A stretch of DNA of 64,000 nucleotides from Clostridium ljungdahlii. GTDB taxonomy: Bacteria > Bacillota > Clostridia > Clostridiales > Clostridiaceae. The position numbers were made by a program, and so were the translations under genes. This document shows, piece after piece, positions 4,502 to 64,000 of the stretch; the stretch's first letter is position 1, and every line of letters begins with the position of its first letter. A model generated the notes under the pieces. It was not told the DNA's origin. It saw only the letters and a list, made by a program, of their open reading frames with translations, and made no database searches. The stretch covers positions 1-64,000 of the forward strand of contig NZ_LITT01000064.1 in NCBI RefSeq assembly GCF_001636845.1, in the 5' to 3' direction.

Positions 4502-5083
4502 TTACAGCTTTATGGTTTTATCTGAAGAATTCATTTTTTCAACTATATCATACATATTAGTTATTTCACCTACAGATAATTTTTCTTTTACACCATAAAA
4601 ATCAAGGCAAGTTCCACAGCTGTATATGCTTACTCCTTTTTTATCGAGCACTTTTAAATTGTCAATGCAATCGGAACCTTCTACTGTTAGTTTTACACCA
4701 CCATTTAAAAATATTAAGTTAGTTGGAAGATATTCACTTTCACTCAGCGCATATAGATAACTTTTCATTAAAGTGGTCCCAAGTTTATCATCGCCAAGTC
4801 CAAGTTTATTATTTGATATAACTATAGTCAGTTTCTGTTGATTAGACTCACATAGCTCACAATTACTAGCATCTTTTTTAATAGTTATATAGAATAGATC
4901 TTCCTTTTGTTCTACTTTGGCAGTAAAACTATTGCTCTTAGCAAACTTGCATACATTATTTTTTGAGACTTCATTGTCCACAACAACAGTAGCAGTTCCT
5001 TTTTCTATGGAATCAAAGTATTTTTTAGTATTTATTACTGGTTGAGGACATTTTAGACCTTTACAATTTATTATATGTTCCAT
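4502..5083 (-). CDS. yedF: sulfurtransferase-like selenium metabolism protein YedF
   Basis: A 193-residue two-part protein. The N-terminal TusA-like domain begins MEHIINCKGLKCPQPV, with the CPQP motif at the end of the first strand and helix. The C-terminal part (GDDKLGTTLMKSYLYAL, then SCGTCLDFYG) is the DsrE-like half found in the clostridial 'selenium metabolism YedF' family. These proteins usually sit with selD or selenocysteine genes, but no selenium gene adjoins here. Starts at ATG 5083 behind a strong AAGGGGTGA. Function is inferred from family and is not biochemically defined. Confidence 0.8.
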   Translation of the reverse strand: MEHIINCKGLKCPQPVINTKKYFDSIEKGTATVVVDNEVSKNNVCKFAKSNSFTAKVEQKEDLFYITIKKDASNCELCESNQQKLTIVISNNKLGLGDDKLGTTLMKSYLYALSESEYLPTNLIFLNGGVKLTVEGSDCIDNLKVLDKKGVSIYSCGTCLDFYGVKEKLSVGEITNMYDIVEKMNSSDKTIKL

Positions 5084-28409: not shown

Positions 28410-28564
28410 GAATAAAAATAATGTCTAATAAATAATCACAGTGTATAAATAAACGTATCAAATTCAGTCATTATGTAAGCTGAATTTCCACAATGTATAT
28501 GATATTCTAACATTAGTACAAATTAACATAAATTTTTATTTTGTATTAAAAGGAGGATATGAAA

Positions 28565-29191
28565 ATGAGTAAAAAATTAATTGATGCAATGGCGGACTTA
28601 GATGAAGACGTTGTTTTAGCAGAAGTAAAGGCACAAAAAGAAAGTGGAACACCAGTATTAGATATTATAGCAGATTTGCAAGAAGGCATGGAAATTGTAG
28701 GAAATAGATTTGAGAAAAAAGAATACTTTTTATCTGAACTCATTATGTCAGCTGAAGTGTTTAATGAAGCTTCTGAAATTATTGGAGGATTGGGTGAATC
28801 TTCAGTATCAAGCAATGGAATATTTGTAATGGGAACTATTTATGATGATATACACGATATAGGAAAAAATATAGTAACTACTGTAATGAAAAGTAACGGC
28901 TTTGATGTAAAGGATTTAGGTGTTGATGTGCCTACAGCAAAATACATTGAAGCTATAAAACAATATAAGCCTAAGGTAATAGGAATATCATGTCTTTTAA
29001 CTACTTGCTTTGATAATGTAAAACAATGTATAAAAGAAATAGAAGATGCAGGACTTAGAAAAGATTTAAAGATTCTAGTTGGAGGTGGACCTGTAGATGA
29101 AAATGCAGGAAAATACATGGGAGCAGATTTAGTTTGTAAAGATGCACAACAGACAGTAGATTTCTGTAAAAAAGCTATGGAGGTAAAATAA
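28565..29191 (+). CDS. corrinoid (B12-binding) protein of a methyltransferase system
   Basis: A 208-residue MtaC/MttC-type corrinoid shuttle protein. The N-terminal helical cap (about residues 1-85) precedes a Rossmann B12-binding domain. There DDIHDIGKN gives the DxHxxG motif, whose His coordinates cobalt from below; GISCLLTT and LVGGGPVDENAG follow. It carries the methyl group between a substrate-specific methyltransferase and tetrahydrofolate. It lies directly upstream of, and 1 nt from, the UroD-type methyltransferase, its probable partner. ATG 28565 is preferred over 28559 because AAGGAGG ends only about 2 nt before the latter. Confidence 0.88.
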   Translation: MSKKLIDAMADLDEDVVLAEVKAQKESGTPVLDIIADLQEGMEIVGNRFEKKEYFLSELIMSAEVFNEASEIIGGLGESSVSSNGIFVMGTIYDDIHDIGKNIVTTVMKSNGFDVKDLGVDVPTAKYIEAIKQYKPKVIGISCLLTTCFDNVKQCIKEIEDAGLRKDLKILVGGGPVDENAGKYMGADLVCKDAQQTVDFCKKAMEVK

Positions 29192-29192
29192 T

Positions 29193-30302
29193 ATGAAAAC
29201 TGCAGAAGAATTATATAATGAACGTTTAAACAGAGTTAAAAAGGCAATTAAATTGGAGAAGACTGATAGGACACCTGTTGTTCCATTTGGAATTTGTATT
29301 TTTCCAAAGTTAACAGATGTGAAAATGTCTGATTTTGTAGCAGATTTAGATTTGTCAAATAGAGTTATATTAAAAGGAATGAAAATGTTTGGAGATGTTG
29401 ATGCATCACCAGCTTCGTTTTGTTTCGCATCAACTATGGGAACTACATCTTTTTCAAATATGAAGCTTCCTGGACGTGAACTTCCAGATAATATGCTCTG
29501 GCAGGTTGATGAACGCCAATTGATGACCACAGATGATTATGATACTATAATAAATAAAGGATTTGAAGCTTTTAGAAATGATTATTTTGCTTCAAAGATA
29601 AACTTAGATTTAGATGTATTAAATGAAGTAATAACTAAATGTCCTCAGTATATGAAAAATATAAATGATGAAGGATATCCTCTTTATGGTGCAGTACAAA
29701 TAGTACATCCTATTGATTACTTGAGTGTAGGCCGTACACTGGCAAAATTTATGATGGATATAAGAAAGATGCCTGAAAAAGTAGAAGAGGTAATGGACAT
29801 AATTACTGATGCAAACATTAAAACAATGAAACAAGCTGTTAAAAATGCTGTTGATCCTTTAGGCGTATTCATAGCTATGGGGAGAGGATGTCCTGATTTC
29901 TATAATCCTAAACTTTGGGAAAGATTTGTATGGAAAAACCTCAAAAAGATAACTGATGCTATAATAGAGACAGGAGCAGCTGCAAGTTTCCATGCTGATT
30001 CCAATTGGGAGCGCGGACTTGACTATTTTAAAGAATTTCCAAAAGGTACTTGTGTATTTGAAACAGATGGTACCACAGATATTTACAAAATTAAAGAAAA
30101 ACTAGGAGATCATATGTGTATTAAAGGAGATGTTCAAGCTTCAAAATTTGTTCTTGGAACTCCTGATGAAGTATATAATTACAGCTCTCGCCTAATAAAA
30201 GATATGGGCCCGGGATTTATTCTATCATCTGGCTGTGATATACCTGCAAATGCAAAGATAGAAAATGTGAAGGCAATGATTTCTGCTGCTTCAGGCAAAT
30301 AA
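29193..30302 (+). CDS. UroD-superfamily methyltransferase, O-demethylase MTI-like
   Basis: A 369-residue TIM-barrel methyltransferase of the uroporphyrinogen-decarboxylase superfamily (COG0407). The MtaA-type Zn motif HxCG is replaced by SFHADSNWERGLDYF. Candidate ligands are that His/Asp, the Cys in GTCVFETDG and the Cys in LSSGCDIP. This resembles the methyltransferase I of anaerobic aryl-methyl-ether (vanillate-type) O-demethylases, which pass a methyl group to the corrinoid protein encoded just upstream. Substrate is inferred, not shown. No methyltransferase II (pterin-binding) or RamA-like activator is in this window. Ends at a terminator. Confidence 0.75.
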   Translation: MKTAEELYNERLNRVKKAIKLEKTDRTPVVPFGICIFPKLTDVKMSDFVADLDLSNRVILKGMKMFGDVDASPASFCFASTMGTTSFSNMKLPGRELPDNMLWQVDERQLMTTDDYDTIINKGFEAFRNDYFASKINLDLDVLNEVITKCPQYMKNINDEGYPLYGAVQIVHPIDYLSVGRTLAKFMMDIRKMPEKVEEVMDIITDANIKTMKQAVKNAVDPLGVFIAMGRGCPDFYNPKLWERFVWKNLKKITDAIIETGAAASFHADSNWERGLDYFKEFPKGTCVFETDGTTDIYKIKEKLGDHMCIKGDVQASKFVLGTPDEVYNYSSRLIKDMGPGFILSSGCDIPANAKIENVKAMISAASGK

Positions 30303-30390: not shown

Positions 30391-30409
30391 TATCATTTAA
30401 ATATGAACA

Positions 30410-30459
30410 GAGTTCTAAGCATCAGGTGGAGTCAAAACGCAACCTGATGCTTAGAACTC
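30410..30459. repeat. dispersed hairpin repeat, copy 1
   Basis: An 18-bp perfect inverted repeat (GAGTTCTAAGCATCAGGT and its complement) with a 14-nt loop, followed by GTTATCCT rather than a T tract. A near-identical arm and the same GTTATCC follow at 63.83 kb, so this is a member of a repeat family and not a simple terminator. Confidence 0.65.
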
Positions 30460-30605
30460 GTTATCCTATGACTACCTATTCTAATTGATGAATAAATATA
30501 ATTTAGATATACTAATCATATAGATGATATAATAGATTCCAGATAATAGTAGAGGAAGTGATATTTTTTATTAAAAAAGCTTTTTCAATATTTAAAGAGG
30601 AATAA

Positions 30606-34700: not shown

Positions 34701-35768
34701 CTACAGCAAATCTGGTTTTATAGGATAGGCACCAAAGCTTCTTGCCGTATCCATAAGTGCCTGTATATTTTCAATTGGGGAATTTATAGGAATTTGGCAT
34801 CCTGTACTAAGTACAAATCCTTTTGGATTGTCATAAGCTTTTTTGATACAAAGCTTGCTTTCACGTACAACATCATCATAAGTCCCATACCTTACAGCAT
34901 CTACTGGAGATACATTACCAACCAAACAAACCTTGTCTCCAATAGCTTTTTTAGCCTTTTCTAGATCCTCAGTATTATCAATACTCAATGTGGTTATTCC
35001 TGTTTGTATTAAACTATCCCATATTTCTTTGCTTTTACCGCACACATGCATGGAGGTTCCCATACCATTTTTTTGTCTCATTCTATCTACACATTTTTTT
35101 ACATAGGGCATAGAAAACTTATCATATAATTTTTTGCTTATTATACTTGAAGAAGAAACAGGGTCACACATTTCAAAACCAATTCCTATATTTGCTATAA
35201 TATCTATAATCTTAAAATTAGATTCTGTTACTATCTCTAAAAGCTCATGAACTTTTTCAGGATATTTAATCAGCGCTTTTAAAAAATTTTCAGTTCCTAA
35301 TAAATCTGACGCTGTTGTAAAAGGAGCTGGAATCGAAAAACTTACATTTACTTCTTTACCTAAAGCATCGTTCACCATTTTTACTGCTTCAAGTCTTATT
35401 GGAAGTTTCCCATCTTTATAGGGATCAGCAGGGGAAAGCTTTGCTACATCATTGATATCCTTTATGGCAGGTTTGTCTACGTATGAAATAGCATTTTCAG
35501 GATATATAACTTTCGTTCCCATAGCTTCTGCAATTTCTCTAAGAGAAACACCTACCCCAACACTATCATGTCTAAATTTTTTAAAAAGAGCTATTTCAAG
35601 TTCAGCAGTTACATCCGCATTATGATAGTATTCATAAGTAGTTTGCCCAATAAAAGGAGCTAAAGTAACGCCCATCATGGGAGTACATGGTATCCTATCA
35701 ACAGGTTCACCTTTTGATAGGGCTTTCATTCTTTCTTTTGGAGTCATCGAATCCTTTTTAATTTCCAT
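34701..35768 (-). CDS. UroD-superfamily corrinoid methyltransferase (MtaA/MtbA-like)
   Basis: A 355-residue TIM-barrel methyltransferase. TPKERMKALSKGEPVDRIPC is the family N-terminus. SMHVCGKSKEIW provides the His-x-Cys Zn ligands, and the third is Cys in LSTGCQIPINSP. The zinc would activate a thiol or other methyl acceptor, or hold the methyl donor. In methanogens the acceptor is coenzyme M, which clostridia lack, so the true substrate is unknown. It lies 63 nt downstream of the double-cubane reductase gene on the same strand and probably shares its transcript. Start 35768; ATG 35747 is an alternative. Confidence 0.82.
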   Translation of the reverse strand: MEIKKDSMTPKERMKALSKGEPVDRIPCTPMMGVTLAPFIGQTTYEYYHNADVTAELEIALFKKFRHDSVGVGVSLREIAEAMGTKVIYPENAISYVDKPAIKDINDVAKLSPADPYKDGKLPIRLEAVKMVNDALGKEVNVSFSIPAPFTTASDLLGTENFLKALIKYPEKVHELLEIVTESNFKIIDIIANIGIGFEMCDPVSSSSIISKKLYDKFSMPYVKKCVDRMRQKNGMGTSMHVCGKSKEIWDSLIQTGITTLSIDNTEDLEKAKKAIGDKVCLVGNVSPVDAVRYGTYDDVVRESKLCIKKAYDNPKGFVLSTGCQIPINSPIENIQALMDTARSFGAYPIKPDLL

Positions 35769-35831
35769 ATATAATTAAACACCTTCTTAAATTTATATTA
35801 AAATAATCATATGCTTATGGTGATAAATAAA

Positions 35832-36980
35832 TTATAGCATTTCTATAAAAGCAGCAACTCTAGTCTTAATCTGACCTACGTCTGTTTTTGAATAATCTGT
35901 TTCGATAGCCATATAAGGCACTTTTTTCTCTTCATTTACAAATTTCTTTATTCCATAAGATTCTACACTGTATGGATGACAAGACTGAAGTATTACATCT
36001 ACTACTCCATCTATTTTATAGTCATCTATAAGTTCTGAAAGTAAATTTATTCTATTGTTGTTTGGAGTCATACAGGCACAGCCTATTTTTAAATATTTTT
36101 CAGTAATTGCATCTATTGGATCTTTAGTTTCATCTACAAGTTTAGAGATTTCCTTAACACCTGTACAATCTTCATAGCATACTACTACTCCACCGTTATC
36201 TTCTATAGCATGTACAACTTTTTCTGTAGCTTCACCCATTGGACAGCCTGTAATCAATATTCTCTTTGCATTTTGTGATATTTTTCTTTCTCCCTTATCA
36301 TAAGCATCTTTAATTTTTGCTGTTGTATTATGTAAGTCATTGATTAAAGCTTCCTTGTCCCATTTAAAAGACGATCCATTTAAAATTTTAAGTAATTCTA
36401 TGCCTGTTATTGGAGGAGGGCACATTTTCCCTAATTCATAAAATTCCTTTAAGGCTTTTCTTTCTCTATTACGAAGCTTTATAGAATTTTTTAACTTTTC
36501 ATTAGTTATAGTTATATTGAATTCTTTTTCAAGCTTTTCCTTTAATTTTATCAATTCATCTTTCCATAATTTATAGCTATCAGCATCATCAGGCATCTGC
36601 GGCAGGTGCATTACATGTACATTCTTAAATTTACTTAAGTATTCATACATCTTTTTCTTTCCATCACAAGTAGTTTCTCCCACAATTAAATCTGAAAAAT
36701 AAAAATAAGGGCATTTATCTGTCATAGCAAAGCCGTAACTTGATTTAATAAGCGGGCATAGATTCCTAGGTAAATGCTTTTCTGCATCTTCTATGGTTTC
36801 ATCACTTTTTGAACACAGTGAAACAGCCAAAGCTCCTGAAGCATTTATAATTTCCCAGGGGGTAAAAGTACAAAAAGTTCCTACAACCTTTTTACCCTCA
36901 TCCTTTAGATTTTTTATAGTTATAAATCCTTGTTTTCTAGAATCGCTAAAATCATTAAATATTTGGGGTAAATCATTCAT
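35832..36980 (-). CDS. double-cubane-cluster / 2-hydroxyacyl-CoA dehydratase-like reductase (HgdB family)
   Basis: A 382-residue protein of the HgdB/benzoyl-CoA-reductase superfamily. Single-subunit length and VVGTFCTFTPWEIINASGAL, then NLCPLIKSSYGF and VGETTCDGKKKMYE, fit the double-cubane-cluster proteins (DCCP) that carry an [8Fe-9S] cluster and reduce small substrates with ATP-activated electrons. Cys37, Cys75 and Cys105 are visible, with others in TGCPMGEATEK, YEDCTG, IGCACMTP and LQSCHPYSVE. It needs an ASKHA-type activase; one is encoded at 46420. It adjoins two corrinoid methyltransferases, so a role in corrinoid reduction or substrate reduction is inferred. RBS AAGGAAGGT. Confidence 0.8.
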   Translation of the reverse strand: MNDLPQIFNDFSDSRKQGFITIKNLKDEGKKVVGTFCTFTPWEIINASGALAVSLCSKSDETIEDAEKHLPRNLCPLIKSSYGFAMTDKCPYFYFSDLIVGETTCDGKKKMYEYLSKFKNVHVMHLPQMPDDADSYKLWKDELIKLKEKLEKEFNITITNEKLKNSIKLRNRERKALKEFYELGKMCPPPITGIELLKILNGSSFKWDKEALINDLHNTTAKIKDAYDKGERKISQNAKRILITGCPMGEATEKVVHAIEDNGGVVVCYEDCTGVKEISKLVDETKDPIDAITEKYLKIGCACMTPNNNRINLLSELIDDYKIDGVVDVILQSCHPYSVESYGIKKFVNEEKKVPYMAIETDYSKTDVGQIKTRVAAFIEML

Positions 36981-37421
36981 TTATCAATACCTTCCTTACT
37001 TTTAATTTTTAATGGATTACATATTTTAATATTATCACAGATTATATCGTTAATTTTATCTATAAAGAAATCTTATATTATTTAAGTTGATTATTTGTTT
37101 TATGTATAATTATTGTTAAATTTTCACATGCAGGGATATAATTGAATTAGAATTATACTGTTATGTAATATTACATACTGCAATGGTGAGGAAAGATGTT
37201 ATAAATGTAAGGTGGCAATTTTCGGAAATTTGTCTAAAAAAACAGAAAAAGAAATAAAGCATACTGAAGACTCTTATAAATAAAAATAAACTAAATAAAA
37301 TAAGTGCTATTAAAAATAGTAAAGTTGTCAACGAGAGACGATTTTCAAGATCATTTTGTAAAAACTTTGAATTTTTAATTGTATATATAAATATAAATTT
37401 AAGAAGGGATATGATTTTATT
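36981..37421. other. divergent intergenic region of the methyltransferase/reductase cluster
   Basis: 440 nt of AT-rich sequence separate the leftward reductase-methyltransferase genes from the rightward corrinoid-methyltransferase genes. I see no convincing riboswitch or terminator. A short Cys-containing frame (CNGEERCYKCKVAIFGNL, about 37170-37230) lacks a start codon and is not called. Promoters for both sides and any operator for the nearby Lrp/AsnC regulator should lie here. Confidence 0.5.
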
Positions 37422-38081
37422 ATGAAGGATGATTTATTAAAGGAACTATCTGATTCTGTATTAAATATGCAAGAGGAGGAAACAATAGAGATATCAAAAA
37501 AGTGTGTAGAAAATAATATCAATGCTTATGAAGCTATAGATAAAGGATTAGCTGACGGCATGAATAGAGCTGGAAAGCTCTATGAAGAAGAAGAATATTA
37601 TATACCTGAACTACTTTTGTGCTCTGATGCCATGTATTCTGGTTTAGATATATTAAAGCCACATTTAGAGAGAGAAGAAACTGAAAGCAAAGCTAAAGTA
37701 GTAATTGGTGTAGTAGAAGGAGATACTCACGATATAGGTAAAAACTTAGTTAAAATAATGATGGAAACAGAAGGATTTGAAGTTATAGACTTAGGAAGAG
37801 ATATACCTCCTATAGATTTTGTAAACAAAGCCAAAGAAGTAGGAGCCTCAATTATTGCACTATCAACTCTTATGACTACTACTATGGACGGCATGGCTGA
37901 GGTAATAAACCTTTTGAAAAAGGAAGGTTTAAGAGACAAAATATCAGTCATGGTAGGCGGAGGCCCTATATCTCAAAGCTTTGCAGATAAAATAGGAGCA
38001 GATGCTTATACCTTAGATGCTTCAAAAGCTGCTAAACGAGCTAAAGCTTTAATTAAAAAACAAACAGCAGAAATTATATAA
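37422..38081 (+). CDS. corrinoid (B12-binding) protein
   Basis: A 219-residue corrinoid shuttle protein. The N-terminal cap includes NRAGKLYEEEEYYIPELLLC. The B12 domain shows VVEGDTHDIGKNLV (DxHxxG, His the cobalt ligand), ALSTLMTTTMDGM and VMVGGGPISQSFA. It matches MtaC/MtbC-type proteins well, more canonically than the 28.6-kb copy (GDxHDIG here, DDIHDIG there). It lies 15 nt before the methyltransferase it presumably serves. Start ATG 37422, RBS AAGAAGGG. Confidence 0.9.
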   Translation: MKDDLLKELSDSVLNMQEEETIEISKKCVENNINAYEAIDKGLADGMNRAGKLYEEEEYYIPELLLCSDAMYSGLDILKPHLEREETESKAKVVIGVVEGDTHDIGKNLVKIMMETEGFEVIDLGRDIPPIDFVNKAKEVGASIIALSTLMTTTMDGMAEVINLLKKEGLRDKISVMVGGGPISQSFADKIGADAYTLDASKAAKRAKALIKKQTAEII

Positions 38082-38096
38082 GGAGAGCTAAAAATT

Positions 38097-39173
38097 ATGG
38101 AAGATCAAATGACACCTATAGAAAGATCTATAGCATTAAATAAAAAGCAAGAAGTAGATAGATTACCCTGCAATCCTAATATAGCTAACGGCGTAGCAAG
38201 AATTTATGGCTGCAAGATTTCGGATTTTAATACTAGCGGACAAGCTATAGCTGAGGCACAAATAGCAGCGTATAAAAAATTTCATATGGATGGAGTAAGA
38301 GTATTCACAGATTTATATGCTTGGGCAGAAGCTATGGGATGTGAGCTTACATTTCCAGAAGATAATACTGCTGATCTTTTAAAACCGGCCATAAAAAATA
38401 TTGACGATATATGTAAAATAAAGATAGCAAATCCTTATAAAGATGGTAGATTGCCCGTATATATTGAGGCAATGAAATATTTAGTTGATAAAATTGGGAA
38501 AGAAGTTGCTTGCTCTGGAGGTATAGTAGGACCATTTTCAAATGCCTTTTTCCTGGTAGGAATAGAAAATATGACAAGACTATTTTTTAAAAATCCAGAG
38601 GCCGTACATAAACTTTGTGAGCTTTCCTTACAGACATGTATAGAATACGCAAAAGTTGTAATGAGTTTAGGACTTTCTATTACTATTTCAGAACCTTTAT
38701 CCTCTTGCACTGTAATTAGTCCAAAGCATTTTGAAAAATTCTGCATTCCTTATTTAGAAAAGCTTGTACGATTCATACAATCTCAGGGAAAAACATGTGT
38801 GCTCCATATATGTGGTAAAACTAAAAAAATATGGCCCTACGTTGGAAAACTTTCTGAAATAGGTGTCAGTGGTTTTAGCATGGACAATGTAGAAAGTTTA
38901 AAAGAATGTAAAGAAGAACTAGGCGATAAAGTAAAAATAATGGGTAATGTAGATCCTTCAAATATAATGTATGGAGGCACAAAAAAAGAAATTGTAAATA
39001 CAGTTGCGAAATGTGTATTAGATGGATATGATAGTTTAAAAGGTTATGTGGTAATGTCCGGGTGTAGTTTACCTGTAGAAACCCCTTCAGAAAATATACA
39101 ATTAATGATGGATACTGTTAGAAAAATTGGATATCCAATAGATGTTGAAAAGGTAAAATCATTTATTGTATAA
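38097..39173 (+). CDS. UroD-superfamily corrinoid methyltransferase (MtaA/MtbA-like)
   Basis: A 358-residue relative of the 34.7-kb methyltransferase. MTPIERSIALNKKQEVDRLP is the N-terminal signature. VLHICGKTKKIWP holds the His-x-Cys Zn pair, and VMSGCSLPVETPS the third Cys. It contains ISEPLSSCTVISPKHFEKF near the substrate cavity. It is translationally close to the corrinoid protein upstream (RBS AAGGAGAG), forming a two-gene operon ending at a terminator. The two methyltransferases flanking the reductase may act as donor-side and acceptor-side enzymes with the single corrinoid protein between them (inference). Confidence 0.85.
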   Translation: MEDQMTPIERSIALNKKQEVDRLPCNPNIANGVARIYGCKISDFNTSGQAIAEAQIAAYKKFHMDGVRVFTDLYAWAEAMGCELTFPEDNTADLLKPAIKNIDDICKIKIANPYKDGRLPVYIEAMKYLVDKIGKEVACSGGIVGPFSNAFFLVGIENMTRLFFKNPEAVHKLCELSLQTCIEYAKVVMSLGLSITISEPLSSCTVISPKHFEKFCIPYLEKLVRFIQSQGKTCVLHICGKTKKIWPYVGKLSEIGVSGFSMDNVESLKECKEELGDKVKIMGNVDPSNIMYGGTKKEIVNTVAKCVLDGYDSLKGYVVMSGCSLPVETPSENIQLMMDTVRKIGYPIDVEKVKSFIV

Positions 39174-39245
39174 CACAAATAATTAAAAAAGAATAGTACA
39201 AATTAAAATGTTTAGTAAATCCAACGAATTTAATACAAAGTTTTT

Positions 39246-39286
39246 AAAAAAATAAGGTTAAATACTATTTTAGCCTTATTTTTTAT
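39246..39286 (+). terminator. terminator of the corrinoid/methyltransferase operon
   Basis: AAAAAATAAGGTTA / TAGCCTTATTTTTT (one G-T pair), 10-nt loop, T-rich tail. Confidence 0.85.
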
Positions 39287-39367
39287 TTTATTATCTAAAA
39301 TATATTTAACAATTTAAAGTATATACTATAATATATTTAATAAACTAAAAAAGAGGTTTTGCTTAAT

Positions 39368-39820
39368 ATGGATGCTATAGATGTTAATATATTAAAATTA
39401 CTAAAGGAAAATTCGAGAATTTCAGCTTCAGAAATAAGCAGTAAAATTAATTTATCAATACCTGCAGTAAGTGATCGGTTGAAAAAACTTGATGCATCAG
39501 GAGTAATAGAAAAATACACTGTAATTATTAGTAATAAGGAAATGAATAAAAATATCACAGTAATAATGTTTGTAAGTCTTAAAAATCCAAATTTTACAGA
39601 CAAATTTGTAGAATTTGTTCAAAATGAAAATGAAATAATTGAATGTCACTACTTAACGGGTGACTTTGATTATGCATTAAAAATTGTTACTGAAGACACA
39701 GAAACTCTTGAAAAGATTTTAAATGAAATAAAACTAATTAAGGGAGTCTTACGAACTAAAACTATAGTTACACTTTCTACTATTAAGAATAACTATTCAA
39801 TACCACCTGATGAAATCTAA
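39368..39820 (+). CDS. Lrp/AsnC family transcriptional regulator
   Basis: A 150-residue regulator. The N-terminal winged HTH (AIDVNILKLLKENSRISASE, LSIPAVSDRLKKLDASG) binds DNA. The C-terminal RAM/ligand domain (HYLTGDFDYALKIVTED, then GVLRTKTIVTLSTIK) senses amino acids. It follows the methyltransferase operon and may regulate it or the leucine-T-box transporter; this is proximity only. ATG 39368 is preferred: GAGG lies 11 nt upstream, versus 2 nt for the in-frame TTG at 39359, and MDAIDVNIL is a typical family N-terminus. Confidence 0.85.
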   Translation: MDAIDVNILKLLKENSRISASEISSKINLSIPAVSDRLKKLDASGVIEKYTVIISNKEMNKNITVIMFVSLKNPNFTDKFVEFVQNENEIIECHYLTGDFDYALKIVTEDTETLEKILNEIKLIKGVLRTKTIVTLSTIKNNYSIPPDEI

Positions 39821-43628: not shown

Positions 43629-44445
43629 ATATTCTATAAAACTAAGTCAAAATCCTCCTTATATGCCCTTATATTGTATGAATAATTTGTTAATTATATT
43701 TTATTCTCATATTTTATGATGATAAATGTCATAGATTTTCTCTCAAATTATGAGCTATTTCATGCTGCATGCTTTCCATGTATTAATTTGTAAAAACATC
43801 TCTTACGCATTAAATTTTTATTTCAATTGATAATATTCTCAATTCATATTTTTAACTTTGAAAAAGAATATTTTAAATTGGAATATTTCATTTTTAATTT
43901 AGAGTTGTATATATTTTATTGTATGAAAAAGTAATTTTTATCAAATTGAAATATTTCCACAATATGGGCATAACTTTGTGGATTCATTTTTCTACTTTAT
44001 TCTTTCTTATCTATTGTTGTAAACCTTTCTGCATAATATTTGCAGAATTATGATTTATTTTCAGATATTATATACCCTCTTATTTATAAAATCAGAAAAT
44101 AGAAATACTCCTAACTTGTATTTTATAGTCGAAAGCTTTTTTAAAAATATTTTTTTCAACACAATTCATATGTTAATCAAGCGATTCTTAAACTCAGGTG
44201 GAAGATAAGAGTGTTGCGTATGGTAGGCATCAGATAAACTCTAGCACAGCCTTTTTATAAGTTCATCTTATACTTTACATAATATTTATTCTGAAAAGTA
44301 AAAAATAATATTTTATAAAGATTGAATAAATCCAAGAAATTATGGCAAAATATACAAATGTAAATATTTAATCATAAAAGATTGGAGGAATCGCTGCTTA
44401 GAAATTTCTATGTTCTTCTCTCCTATTGAAAGCAGCAACTTATAT
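43629..44445. other. 817-nt gene-free AT-rich region
   Basis: No supported coding frame. The sequence is very AT-rich with T/A tracts. It contains a third copy of part of the dispersed hairpin repeat (44184-44265). A GGAGG at 44384 precedes the DUF2229 gene but lies unusually far from any ATG. Confidence 0.5.
44184..44265. repeat. dispersed hairpin repeat, partial copy 3
   Basis: GATTCTTAAACTCAGGTGGA, then AGATAAGAGTGTTGCGTATGG and TAGGCATCAGATAAACTC, share segments with the 63.83-kb copy (AGAAGATGGGGGTGTTAGCA then ATGGTAGCGA). Degenerate and without the long perfect stem. Relationship is by eye. Confidence 0.4.
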
Positions 44446-45345
44446 ATGAAACTAGGTATTCCTAAAGGATTATTGTATTGTAAATATCACACTTTTATAG
44501 AAACGTTCTTTAAAGAACTTGGAGCTGAAATAATAACATCCCAAGATACAGATAAATATATACTTAATCTTGGAACAAAGTATTGTGTAGATGAAGCATG
44601 TCTTCCAATAAAGGTATTTCATGGTCATGCAGCTTCAATAAAGGATAAATGTGACATCATGCTTATTCCTAGAATAATGCAACTACAAAAAAGAGAATTT
44701 ATATGTCCTAAATTTTGCGGCCTTCCAGAAATGATAACAAATGACATTCCCAATATGCCTCCATTGTTAAACTACCCTATATATGCTTTTTCTAAAACAA
44801 AGCGTAGAAACTGGTTATTAAAAGCTGGTTTGATATTTACTAAAAATATTTTTAAAATAAGTGCTGCCTATAAAAAAGCATTAAGTACCCAAGAAAATTA
44901 TAAGTTATCAATAGATACCAGTGATTTTCCTATAAAAACTGCATTAGTAAGTCATCCTTACAACTTATATGACACCTTTACCAATATGAATATAGCAAAA
45001 AAATTAAACAAACTTGGTATCGGCATAGTTACAGAGGAAAGTATAAATGAAAGCATAATAAACAGTGAGGTAAACCATCTATTTAAAAAGCCATTTTGGC
45101 ATTTTGCTAGAAATTCTTATGGTTTTTCCACTTATGCAGCAGAAAATAAAAAAGTAGATGGTATAATATACATCTCTTCTTTTGCCTGTGGAATAGATTC
45201 TGTAGTAATTGAACTTATTAAAAATAGGTTAAAAGATTTTCCTATGCTCATATTAAAAATAGATGAACAAACTGGAGAAGCAGGTTTTAATACTAGATTA
45301 GAAGCCTTTTCAGATATGCTTAAAAGGAGGTGTACAAATTTATGA
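44446..45345 (+). CDS. DUF2229 acyl-CoA dehydratase activase-related protein
   Basis: A 299-residue protein starting MKLGIPKGLLYCKYHTFIET, the DUF2229 N-terminus. YCVDEACLPIKVFHGH and RIMQLQKREFICPKFCGLPE carry conserved cysteines, and ISSFACGIDSVVIELI and LKIDEQTGEAGFNTRLEAF follow. Such proteins accompany or are fused to the ATP-dependent activases of HgdB-type dehydratases and reductases; their role is not known. It overlaps the next gene by 4 nt (ATGA). The start is uncertain: family alignment favours 44446, though GGAGG at 44384 is nearer ATG 44410. Confidence 0.75.
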   Translation: MKLGIPKGLLYCKYHTFIETFFKELGAEIITSQDTDKYILNLGTKYCVDEACLPIKVFHGHAASIKDKCDIMLIPRIMQLQKREFICPKFCGLPEMITNDIPNMPPLLNYPIYAFSKTKRRNWLLKAGLIFTKNIFKISAAYKKALSTQENYKLSIDTSDFPIKTALVSHPYNLYDTFTNMNIAKKLNKLGIGIVTEESINESIINSEVNHLFKKPFWHFARNSYGFSTYAAENKKVDGIIYISSFACGIDSVVIELIKNRLKDFPMLILKIDEQTGEAGFNTRLEAFSDMLKRRCTNL

Positions 45346-46439
45346 AAGTAACCTTTCCCCATCTTGGAAATACATGTTTTGCAGCAAAAGCTGTATTTGA
45401 TGGACTTGGTGTTGATTATATAATTCCGCCATTGAGCAACAGAGAAGCTTTAGAAATTGGATCATTTTATTCTCCAGAGGAAATGTGTCTTCCTTTTAAA
45501 ATAATGATAGGAAATTATATACAAAGTATAAAACAAGGTGCAGATACAATATTAATAGTTGGAAGCTGCGGCCCATGCAGATTTGGAGAATATTGTGAAC
45601 TCCAAATGAATCTATTGAAAAAATTAGGCTATAACTTAAATTTTGTAGTTCTAGATTATCCAAAAGATATAGGATTGAAAGAACTTATGAGAAGATTGCT
45701 TTCTATTGGATCAGTTAGCACGAAAAATACAGTAGAAAAGTTAAAAGTAGTATATCAAGGACTTAAGATAATAAATCTAATGGACAATATAGATAAAAAG
45801 GCAAAATTATTATCAGGCTATGAAATAGAAAAAGGACAGTGCAAAGATATATTAAAAAGTTGCAAATTAAACTCTTTTAAAACTACTTCACCAGAAGAAA
45901 TGATATTTACTATAAAAAGCCATATGAAGCAGTTAAACAAAGTACCAATCTCTAAAAATGAAAAGCCTTTAAAAATTGCTATAATCGGTGAAATATATAC
46001 TATAATAGAACCTTTTTCAAATCTTTTTATAGAAGAAAAACTTATGAATTATGGAGTATCTACAGCTAGATATCTTTCTCCAAGTTGGTGGATTAAAGAT
46101 ATGGCTTTATCTCCATTAAAGTTGAATTCACTCAATTTAAGAAAAAATTCTAAAAAATATTTACCTTATTATATAGGCGGTCATGCAAGGGAATGTATAG
46201 GAGAAGCTGTTTTAGCAGATAAAAGCGGGTTTGATGGTGCTATACAGATTTTTCCTATGGGATGTATGCCTGAAATTGTATCAAAATCCATACTTCCAAC
46301 TATATCAAAGGATAGAAATTTTCCTATACTTACATTAATAGTAGATGAAATGACCGGTGAAGCTGGATATATAACAAGAATAGAAGCATTTTTAGATTTA
46401 CTTGAAAGGAGAAAAAAGAATGTATTATATGGGAGTTGA
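45342..46439 (+). CDS. second DUF2229-type activase-related protein
   Basis: A 365-residue protein beginning MKVTFPHLGNTCFAAKAVFD. Conserved Cys are in SPEEMCLPFKIMIGNYI, VGSCGPCRFGEYCELQMNLL, GGHARECIGEAV and FPMGCMPEIVSKSI; LIVDEMTGEAGYITRIEAF is shared with the upstream protein. Together they look like a paralogous pair derived from the halves of a larger DUF2229 protein. ATG 45342 follows AAGGAGGTG by 8 nt. Its end overlaps the activase gene by 20 nt, so the three genes are translationally coupled and probably form a complex. Confidence 0.78.
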   Translation: MKVTFPHLGNTCFAAKAVFDGLGVDYIIPPLSNREALEIGSFYSPEEMCLPFKIMIGNYIQSIKQGADTILIVGSCGPCRFGEYCELQMNLLKKLGYNLNFVVLDYPKDIGLKELMRRLLSIGSVSTKNTVEKLKVVYQGLKIINLMDNIDKKAKLLSGYEIEKGQCKDILKSCKLNSFKTTSPEEMIFTIKSHMKQLNKVPISKNEKPLKIAIIGEIYTIIEPFSNLFIEEKLMNYGVSTARYLSPSWWIKDMALSPLKLNSLNLRKNSKKYLPYYIGGHARECIGEAVLADKSGFDGAIQIFPMGCMPEIVSKSILPTISKDRNFPILTLIVDEMTGEAGYITRIEAFLDLLERRKKNVLYGS

Positions 46440-47379
46440 CGTAGGCTCAGTTAGCACAGATATTGTAATAGTTGATGAAAATATGAACTTACTTGAATCA
46501 CTTTACTTAAGGACAAAAGGAAGGCCTATAAGTGCAATTCAAGAAGGATTTAAATTATTGAAAAATAAATATAGAGATACGGACATAAGTGCAGTTGGAA
46601 CCACTGGAAGCGGAAGACAAATTGCTGCTTCTATTATAGGTGCTGATATAATTAAAAACGAAATAACTTCTCATGCCATTGCTGCCTTAAACCTAGATAA
46701 AGATGTTAAAACCATAATAGAAATAGGTGGTCAGGATTCTAAAATAATACTTTTGCAAAATGGCATTGTGCTAGATTTTGCAATGAATACAGTATGTGCA
46801 GCAGGAACAGGTTCCTTTCTAGACCGTCAAGCTGAAAGATTAGATATCCCTATTGAACAATTTGGAGAATATGCTTTAAAGTCTACTTCTCCTGTAAGAA
46901 TAGCAGGGAGATGTGCCGTATTTGCTGAATCAGATATGATACACAAGCAGCAATTAGGTTATAGTAACTCTGATATAATAAAAGGTCTTTGCAATGCTCT
47001 TGTCAGAAATTATTTAACCAACGTGGCCAAAGGCAAAGATATAAAATCCAAAATATTTTTTCAAGGAGGAGTTGCTGCAAATATAGGAATGAAGACTGCT
47101 TTTGAAGAAATACTAAATAAAGAAGTAGTAATCCCCCAAAATTTCAAAGTAATGGGTGCCATTGGTGCATCCATTTTAGCAAAGGAAGCTTTGGAGAAAA
47201 GTAATAAGATCACTAACTTTAATGGATTTAATTTAGCAAATGCTAGTTTTACATCTAAAAGCTTTGAATGCAAAGGATGTCCTAATAGATGTGAAGTTGT
47301 AAAAATATCAGGCACTAAAAAAACTATGGGCTTTTTTGGTGGAAGATGTGAAAAGTGGAATAAAACTATTTCTGCATAA
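46420..47379 (+). CDS. ASKHA-type acyl-CoA dehydratase/DCCP activase (HgdC-like)
   Basis: A 319-residue ATP-dependent electron donor. GVDVGSVSTDIVIVDE is the phosphate-1 loop. GTTGSGRQIAASIIGAD, EIGGQDSKIILL, NTVCAAGTGSFLDRQA and AGRCAVFAESDMIHKQQLG are HgdC signatures; the two latter Cys hold the [4Fe-4S] cluster bridging the homodimer. GGVAANIGMKTAFEE closes the ATPase fold. An extra C-terminal Cys-rich tail (FECKGCPNRCEVVKI, GGRCEKW) is present. Likely partner: the double-cubane reductase at 35832, there being no other HgdB-type protein in the window. ATG 46420, RBS AAGGAG. Confidence 0.85.
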   Translation: MYYMGVDVGSVSTDIVIVDENMNLLESLYLRTKGRPISAIQEGFKLLKNKYRDTDISAVGTTGSGRQIAASIIGADIIKNEITSHAIAALNLDKDVKTIIEIGGQDSKIILLQNGIVLDFAMNTVCAAGTGSFLDRQAERLDIPIEQFGEYALKSTSPVRIAGRCAVFAESDMIHKQQLGYSNSDIIKGLCNALVRNYLTNVAKGKDIKSKIFFQGGVAANIGMKTAFEEILNKEVVIPQNFKVMGAIGASILAKEALEKSNKITNFNGFNLANASFTSKSFECKGCPNRCEVVKISGTKKTMGFFGGRCEKWNKTISA

Positions 47380-62900: not shown

Positions 62901-63827
62901 ATGAGATTTTTTATTGTAGACGATGATGAAGCTATTCGTTCAATGTTATCTGAAATAATTGAAGATTACAATTTAGGAGAAGTTGTTGGTGAGGCATCAA
63001 ATGGCGTCCCCATATCAAGCAGCTTTCTATGTACTAAAAAAATAGACATACTTATAATCGATCTTTTAATGCCAGTTAAAGATGGTCTTCAAACTATAAG
63101 TGAACTTGACCCTTCTTTCAAAGGTAAATCAATAATGCTATCCCAAGTAGAAAACAAAGAAATGATAGGAAAGGCTTATTCTTTAGGCGTACAATACTAT
63201 ATTACAAAGCCAATAAATAGGCTTGAGGTAATTGGCGTTATAAAAAAAGTAATTGAACAAATAAAAATTGAAAAATCCATAAATTATATTCAAGATACCT
63301 TAAACTTTTTAAAAATGGATACACGGGATGATAAAAACAGTTCAAAATCAAATAAAGGTATTTTAGAATACAGTGAATTTATATTAAATCAATTAGGTAT
63401 AATTGCTGAAAGCGGCAGTAAAGATCTACTATCCATTGTAGAATATTTATATACCCGTGAGAACGAAAAAACTATTGAAAAGGATTTCCCATCTTTAAAA
63501 GAAATATTCACTAAAACCTCTGAAAAGAAACTTGGACAAAGTTCTTCTTCAATTGATATAAAAAAAGAGGTAAAAGCATCAGAACAAAGAGTTAGAAGGG
63601 CCGTACTTCAGTCACTAAATTATATATCCTCTCTTGGGCTTACAGACTATTCCAACCCAAAATTTGAAGAATATGCTGCTGAATTTTTCGATTTTACAGA
63701 AGTGAGAAAAAAAATGCTGGAACTAAAAAATAATACTCCCCTTAGTCAACCTATACATATAAATGTTAAAAAGTTTATCAAAGTTTTATATATAAAATCA
63801 AAAAACTACAAAAACAATGATATATAA
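62901..63827 (+). CDS. response regulator with YcbB domain, GlnL-like
   Basis: A 308-residue regulator. The receiver domain (residues 1-120) has RFFIVDDDEAIRSML (acidic pocket), IIDLLMPVKDG (phospho-Asp) and YYITKPINRLEV (Lys). After a linker, the C-terminal YcbB domain (KASEQRVRRAVLQSLNYISS, then YSNPKFEEYAAEFFDF) is the DNA-binding output found in Bacillus GlnL. Operonic with the kinase. Probable target: the divergent symporter. Confidence 0.85.
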   Translation: MRFFIVDDDEAIRSMLSEIIEDYNLGEVVGEASNGVPISSSFLCTKKIDILIIDLLMPVKDGLQTISELDPSFKGKSIMLSQVENKEMIGKAYSLGVQYYITKPINRLEVIGVIKKVIEQIKIEKSINYIQDTLNFLKMDTRDDKNSSKSNKGILEYSEFILNQLGIIAESGSKDLLSIVEYLYTRENEKTIEKDFPSLKEIFTKTSEKKLGQSSSSIDIKKEVKASEQRVRRAVLQSLNYISSLGLTDYSNPKFEEYAAEFFDFTEVRKKMLELKNNTPLSQPIHINVKKFIKVLYIKSKNYKNNDI

Positions 63828-63829
63828 AC

Positions 63830-64000
63830 AGAGTTCTTGGCATCAGGTTGAGTTTTGACTCCACCTGATGCTTATTAACAGGCTTCTTAGTGCTTCAGCA
63901 GTTAGAAGGCGTTATCCTTTAGGAAAAATCGTTATCCAGGCGCGTAGCAGTGCTTATCCCCCACTTTGGTAGAAGATGGGGGTGTTAGCAATGGTAGCGA
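63830..64000. repeat. dispersed hairpin repeat, copy 4 (runs off window)
   Basis: Opens with ACAGAGTTCTTGGCATCAGG, a hairpin with GAGTTTTGACTC and CCACCTGATGCTTA. Next come CTTCTT/AGAAG, two CGTTATCC copies (about 63910 and 63930), CCCCCA/TGGGGG (about 63958-63982) and GTGTTAGCAATGGTAGCGA. The start matches copy 1 (30410) and the end matches copy 2 (30909). No reading frame. Could be the end of a mobile element or a structured RNA. Confidence 0.6.

Follow-up and report, generated by a model that had tools for sequence, protein, structure and literature searches.

A double-cubane cluster protein gene in a corrinoid methyltransferase cluster of Clostridium ljungdahlii that has lost its RACE gene, and its co-distribution with selenium use

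We analysed the first 64,000 nucleotides of contig NZ_LITT01000064.1 of Clostridium ljungdahlii (assembly GCF_001636845.1; this whole stretch is hereafter the window), which carry a gene for a double-cubane cluster protein (DCCP) among genes for corrinoid-dependent methyl transfer (Table 1). The genes for DCCP and the methyltransferase MlpB diverge from those for the corrinoid protein CorrA and a second methyltransferase, MlpA, and the short gaps within each pair (63 bp between DCCP and MlpB, 15 bp between CorrA and MlpA) point to two apparent divergent operons. A scan of the divergent gap gave 4 promoter-like sites, against a mean of 6.3 in shuffled sequence, and no terminator. A gene of the RACE family stood in this gap and has been deleted, and across related genomes DCCP is found almost exclusively where SelD is present.

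The gene encodes a bona fide DCCP. Its product matches profile NF040772 ('double-cubane-cluster-containing anaerobic reductase') with 557.6 bits against a cut-off of 350, and its closest relative by sequence in the PDB is 6ENO, the DCCP of Carboxydothermus hydrogenoformans, for which 7YYL/7YZM include the DCCP reductase (DCCP-R). The AlphaFold model (mean pLDDT 85, input alignment of 24 rows) superposes on 6ENO with a TM of 0.90 and a root-mean-square deviation of 1.9 Å, and 90 of 90 aligned DCCPs share eight invariant cysteines. The two proteins thus share family, fold, full-length alignment and conserved cysteines; on the other hand, the window DCCP belongs to the short class, and no DCCP reductase is encoded within 9 kb of it. 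An adjacent reductase is a common rather than a defining feature of DCCPs; 53 of 81 loci inspected have one within 2 kb. These 81 are the locus of the window and 80 others, mostly short-class, picked by hand from the 109 places with an over-cut-off DCCP in an order-level genome sample. A previous reading of this DNA from its letters alone (the sequence-only reading) had placed an HgdB/DCCP-type protein at exactly these coordinates, and both the position and the identity held up.

Both methyltransferases are UroD-type proteins with a His-x-Cys and a later Gly-Cys on motif inspection, scoring just below the TIGR01463 cut-off (196.0 and 223.3 against 235.4 bits); the best PDB match of MlpA is 4AY7. 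In a tree of Mlp proteins they fall in the Mlp2-type group, and the MlpC proteins of two sister genomes fall in the Mlp3 group, all with His-x-Cys. CorrA carries the DxHxxG motif, is MtbC/MtgC-like with scores below every cut-off, and is 61% identical to the corrinoid protein of a type I-like cluster (L013). Profiles, motifs and gaps therefore bear out the gene content proposed before, two His-x-Cys UroD-type methyltransferases and a corrinoid protein in divergent operons.

The accessible text of Kountz and Balskus 2023 (PMC10418091) gives His-Cys-Cys as the mark of sulfur and selenium methyltransferases, reports methylation of selenide by ClMlp2, describes the order Mlp1-Mlp2-corrinoid-Mlp3-RACE for C. 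ljungdahlii, and places DCCP (and DCCPR) in some type I mlp gene clusters, with a provisional link to selenium. We find that order (Mlp numbered by gene order) at L013 and at its counterpart L175 in the sister genome G146. Like type I clusters, the window has Mlp2-like His-Cys-Cys methyltransferases, a corrinoid protein and DCCP, to which the other sister genome, G148, adds an Mlp3-like gene and RACE. In contrast to them, the window cluster no longer has an Mlp3-like gene or RACE, and no DCCPR adjoins it. As the Mlp2+Mlp3 pair and a Ram/RACE activase are two defining type I features, we class it as a reduced form derived from a type I mlp cluster. The SdmABC dimethylselenide system of Methanococcus also combines UroD-type methyltransferases with a corrinoid protein, and methyl-selenide demethylation is proposed there (PMC11097638); however, SdmABC is archaeal, the accessible part of that report makes no mention of DCCP, and the likeness is drawn from the published description.

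The two sister genomes (G148, locus L109; G146, locus L104) are of the same genus, and their versions of the cluster align with that of the window in blocks of about 92-96% DNA identity. L109 has a 574-aa RACE (PF14574 + PF17651) between the corrinoid gene and DCCP, and two remnants of that protein lie inside the 441-bp divergent gap of the window. L104 keeps other pieces, residues 1-41 and 424-574 of the L109 protein, and this truncated gene was independently picked up by the Pfam RACE model. Because neither remnant is derivable from the other, and because G146 is nearer to the intact G148 than to the window by both DCCP and CorrA (DCCP fork support 86%), RACE was likely lost twice, in the window lineage and in G146; one shared first deletion followed by recombination could also have produced this pattern. 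MlpC is absent from the window and present in both sisters, and MlpB is absent from L109. The surviving window genes are under purifying selection, with ratios of non-synonymous to synonymous substitution rates (dN/dS) of 0.06-0.13 for DCCP, CorrA, MlpA and MlpB against the sister genomes, although a large part of this divergence may be older than the losses. The sequence-only reading had remarked that no RamA-type activator is present. This is true of the cluster today because the RACE gene was deleted there, but the gap holds RACE remnants and the genome encodes five PF14574 proteins elsewhere. The absence of an activator from a cluster can thus reflect a deletion and not a new enzyme.

Table 1. 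Genes, remnants and gene places of the DCCP cluster (window coordinates)
Feature	Position	Strand	Basis
MlpB: MtaA-like (Mlp2-like) methyltransferase, His-Cys-Cys zinc site	34701..35768	(-)	profiles, motif, Mlp tree
DCCP, short class, 382 aa	35832..36980	(-)	NF040772 match, 6ENO relation, 8 invariant cysteines
Divergent intergenic gap, place of deleted RACE gene	36981..37421		574-aa RACE at matching place in L109
RACE remnant, residues 34-68 of L109 protein	37173..37277	(+)	77% identity, tblastn E 3.5e-11, whole window
RACE remnant, residues 553-574 of L109 protein	37310..37375	(+)	86% identity, tblastn E 4.6e-7, whole window
CorrA: corrinoid protein, B12-binding_2 + B12-binding, DTHDIG	37422..38081	(+)	profiles, motif
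MlpA: MtaA-like (Mlp2-like) methyltransferase, His-Cys-Cys zinc site	38097..39173	(+)	profiles, motif, Mlp tree, PDB
MlpC place (341 aa, Mlp3-like, in both sisters); absent in window	39174..39358		sister comparison
Lrp/AsnC-family regulator, cluster end, conserved in both sisters	39359..39820	(+)	sister comparison

DCCP follows selenium use. Among 225 genomes of the order sample, 78 have a DCCP over the cut-off, 147 have SelD and 58 a RACE-family protein. DCCP is nested inside the SelD-positive genomes (78 with both, 0 with DCCP only, 69 with SelD only, 78 with neither; Fisher p 2e-19, uncorrected for kinship). When SelD was shuffled within genera 20,000 times, the number of DCCP-only genomes averaged 15.9 with a minimum of 7, and the observed 0 was never reached. 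Within the window's own genus, DCCP occurs in 6 of 13 genomes and SelD in exactly those 6, while RACE is present in 13 of 13. A phylum sample of 199 genomes (the window's own genome, G000, is in both samples) gave 65 with both DCCP and SelD, 1 with DCCP only, 74 with SelD only and 59 with neither. As a control, the 73 genomes whose best match lies below the DCCP cut-off divide into 34 with and 39 without SelD; these paralogues show no link to SelD.

The 78 DCCP genomes comprise 31 with SelA only, 20 with YqeB only and 27 with both, and DCCP occurs in 0 of the 83 genomes with neither. DCCP thus accompanies either trait, selenocysteine or selenium-molybdenum, or the two together. Its probable point of action is therefore a step common to both, the supply of reduced selenium, and its simplest place is at or before SelD. 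The nesting in SelD-positive genomes, whichever the selenium trait, narrows the question of what DCCP does to that of selenium supply, which can be tested in E. coli K-12; in the E. coli control genome, DCCP, SelA and YqeB all score above their cut-offs. DCCP also has a genuine, if lesser, tie to corrinoid chemistry, as it is associated with RACE across the 225 genomes (40 with both, 38 DCCP only, 18 RACE only, 129 neither; p 6e-10) and also within the SelD-positive ones (40, 38, 5 and 64, respectively). DCCP is present in 0 of the 13 RACE-positive genomes that lack SelD.

Selenium genes also occur beside DCCP in part of the 81 loci. selD lies within 2 kb at 10 and within 9 kb at 14, and a DUF3343-like gene is near DCCP at 18; the one copy scanned, that of L116, matches Pfam Se_S_carrier with 80.2 bits. 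A similar 83-aa gene stands between DCCP and its reductase on contig C24 of this genome, and at L149 the order is yqeB, yedF, selD, DCCP, activase and a mocA-like gene. That some type I mlp clusters carry DCCP had been published before, as had a provisional selenium link. Apparently new are the genome-wide nesting, with its paralogue control, and the window RACE deletion, for neither of which we found an earlier report in the literature searched, which covered few subscription papers. In the accessible part of Lin et al. 2015 (PMC5322559), a STRING table lists 2-hydroxyglutaryl-CoA dehydratase subunits and activase.

Corrinoid and Mlp genes occur together within 9 kb of DCCP at 11 of the 81 loci; 8 of these have a RACE frame longer than 500 aa, L104 has the truncated RACE, and the window and L115 have none. 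Among the best 80 of 494 named loci, corrinoid and Mlp genes occur together at 6, and all 6 also carry a RACE frame longer than 500 aa. Pooling both sets, with L016 and L095 counted once as they are one record, and leaving out L025, where Mlp and RACE are present but the contig ends, and L068, where corrinoid and RACE genes come with a weak Mlp match, a RACE frame longer than 500 aa is present at 13 of 16 distinct loci. The corrinoid and MlpA genes of L107 are fragmented. A tree of 90 DCCPs, built by a quick method with SH-aLRT support only and containing one very long branch (L165), places the window DCCP in a nine-member clade with 98% support. Corrinoid and Mlp genes are present at 6 of 9 loci of this clade; the co-occurrence that the sequence-only reading proposed to look for is therefore real. 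The neighbourhood of corrinoid and Mlp genes requires 5 changes on this tree and is spread over several branches. At none of the nine clade loci is a DCCP reductase encoded in the flanking sequence covered (up to 9 kb), and in six of the nine genomes a long-class DCCP with a reductase lies elsewhere (L004, L170-L174). G146 and G148 have a long-class DCCP match, and G113 has fragments only. Five clade members (L107, L110, L113, L114 and L115) lie near nifS and mnmA (tRNA 2-thiouridine synthesis), two of them among the six loci with corrinoid and Mlp genes.

Candidate partners for the cluster are encoded elsewhere in this genome. Of the five RACE-family genes, two on C1 lie inside the Mlp/corrinoid clusters L013 and L014, and C7 and C47 carry one each, in clusters that also hold a gene resembling the pterin-type gene of L010. 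The fifth, C64:69116, lies about 30 kb from the cluster, beyond the window end, beside corrinoid, UroD and PF00809 genes. The earlier statement that no pterin methyltransferase is present holds for the cluster, and a PF00809 protein is encoded in this C64:69116 cluster (L010 9080-9877). The second DCCP of the genome, on contig C24, is adjoined by a DCCP reductase, which is a likelier partner of the window DCCP than the activase at 46402 that the sequence-only reading had named. The 46402 activase, which overlaps its own DUF2229 genes, shares only 32-33% identity with two activases encoded beside DCCPs, whereas the identity between those two is 45%, and we do not prefer it.

The reading we favour, at a probability of roughly 55%, is that the window holds a reduced type I mlp cluster in which DCCP is an ATP-driven, low-potential reductase of the selenium economy, with RACE and the DCCP activator supplied in trans. 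MlpA and MlpB would demethylate a methyl-selenium or methyl-sulfur compound, passing the methyl group from its soft atom to CorrA. We infer this step from the family, the His-Cys-Cys site, the activity of ClMlp2 (PMC10418091) and expression in M. maripaludis, where a homologous operon goes up 5.6-7.8 log2-fold on selenium depletion (PMC11097638, accessible part). Ancestrally, the Co(II) form of CorrA would have been reactivated by the ordinary RACE encoded between the corrinoid gene and DCCP, and another RACE probably now returns it from Co(II) in trans. DCCP would be charged in trans, with ATP, by the C24 DCCP reductase, and electrons would then flow on to its substrate, most likely a selenium (or sulfur) species that is hard to reduce, giving selenide or selenol for SelD. 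The link of DCCP to selenium comes from genome distribution, and the reaction itself is one that we infer. The sequence-only reading is partly supported overall; its fallback, that DCCP reduces a substrate, is close to the reading preferred here.

More tentatively, DCCPs in general could be ATP-driven suppliers of reduced selenium to SelD, for example from elemental selenium, diselenide or other oxidised or organic selenium beyond the reach of ferredoxin. The potential of the Se(0)/HSe- couple is close to -0.7 V. If this is true, a nitrogenase-like enzyme serves a trace nutrient, which would explain the role of DCCP in anaerobes and E. coli. The physiological relevance of the known DCCP reactions is called unclear in the accessible text of a 2025 paper (PMC11971306).

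Several points weigh against our preferred assignment of DCCP and its partners to selenium metabolism. The His-Cys-Cys zinc site cannot distinguish sulfur from selenium, and nifS and mnmA beside 5 of 9 DCCPs of the window's clade possibly hint at sulfur or selenouridine chemistry. We know of no reaction of DCCP on selenium, and no selenium marker (selD, DUF3343-like gene and others) lies within 9 kb of the window DCCP. The DCCP-only genome of the phylum sample, G390 (94% complete), has no SelD over the cut-off, and 69 of 147 SelD-positive genomes lack DCCP, so DCCP is not needed for selenium use. Service by RACE in trans is plausible, but the closest RACE in this genome (L014) is only 37% identical to that of L109. 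The RACE at C64:69116 (L010 4411-5892; 493-517 aa) is about 100 N-terminal residues short of the 617-aa sister copies L176 and L177, and may be damaged or truncated.

The explanation proposed by the sequence-only reading was that DCCP, with the activase, could be an alternative ATP-dependent reactivase that returns CorrA to Co(I). Given the deletion, it would act in this way now or have done so since RACE was lost. This would fit the position of DCCP, which faces CorrA over a short divergent gap, the purifying selection on CorrA and MlpA even though the window has no RACE left and L104 only a truncated one, and L115, where DCCP, corrinoid and Mlp genes stand without RACE within 9 kb. However, the RACE gene stood exactly in that gap, the established ATP-dependent reactivases of the RamA/RACo/RACE family (PF14574) being the ancestral partner here, and RACE is kept at most comparable loci (13 of 16). 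Five other RACE-family genes exist in the window's genome, two of them inside Mlp/corrinoid clusters, and two exist in G116, the genome of L115; furthermore, the selection seen on CorrA and MlpA may largely reflect divergence from before the loss. DCCP belongs to another family (HGD-D) and tracks SelD rather than RACE, as 38 of 78 DCCP genomes have no RACE family and none of the 13 RACE-positive, SelD-negative genomes has DCCP. We regard a substitute reactivase as highly improbable.

A role within the methyl-transfer pathway itself, in which DCCP would reduce a sulfur or selenium metabolite by C-S/C-Se cleavage or by reduction of an oxidised methyl-chalcogen, has a precedent for its placement in the nitrogenase-like MarHDK, encoded near non-selenium type I clusters (PMC10418091, accessible part), and is consistent with the spread of clusters of DCCP, Mlp, corrinoid and RACE genes over several branches of the DCCP tree. 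We consider it unlikely, though worth keeping in view, since the 9 kb around DCCP do not hold both corrinoid and Mlp genes at 70 of 81 loci, and since 20 genomes that have the selenium-molybdenum trait only also carry DCCP. It is quite unlikely that the window cluster is a decaying relic without present function and that the DCCP-SelD link reflects a shared anaerobic lifestyle. The loss of RACE and MlpC in the window, of MlpB in G148 and of most of RACE in G146, together with the SelD-positive genomes that lack DCCP, would be expected of such decay, but the low dN/dS of the remaining genes would not, and a shared lifestyle would account neither for the missing SelD link of the below-cut-off paralogues nor for within-genus shuffles that never reach the observed value.

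Selenium genes are also present at a distance from the cluster. A YedF selenium-metabolism protein (TIGR03527, 238.7 bits) is encoded at window 4502-5083 (-), about 30 kb from DCCP, and selD and selA each occur twice in the genome (C47:77044-79466 and C6:97467-102038), the C47 pair about 7 kb from a corrinoid/RACE cluster. The 46402 activase belongs to an overlapping module at window 44410-47379 (+), in which an acyl-CoA dehydratase activase accompanies two DUF2229 proteins (split pair).

A separate corrinoid protein and UroD pair lies at window 28559-30302 (+), with His-x-Asp instead of His-x-Cys; its relatives are on L010, with RACE and the PF00809 protein. Because the UroD protein at 29193 has this His-x-Asp and the window Mlps have His-x-Cys, a role of the latter in O-demethylation is not favoured. 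Lastly, a palindromic repeat of about 50-65 bp, a long hairpin, stands between genes at window 30402-30466 and 63823-63874 and at L010, L011, L013, L014, L104 and L109; it recurs in this genome and its sisters, also beside places where Mlp genes differ.

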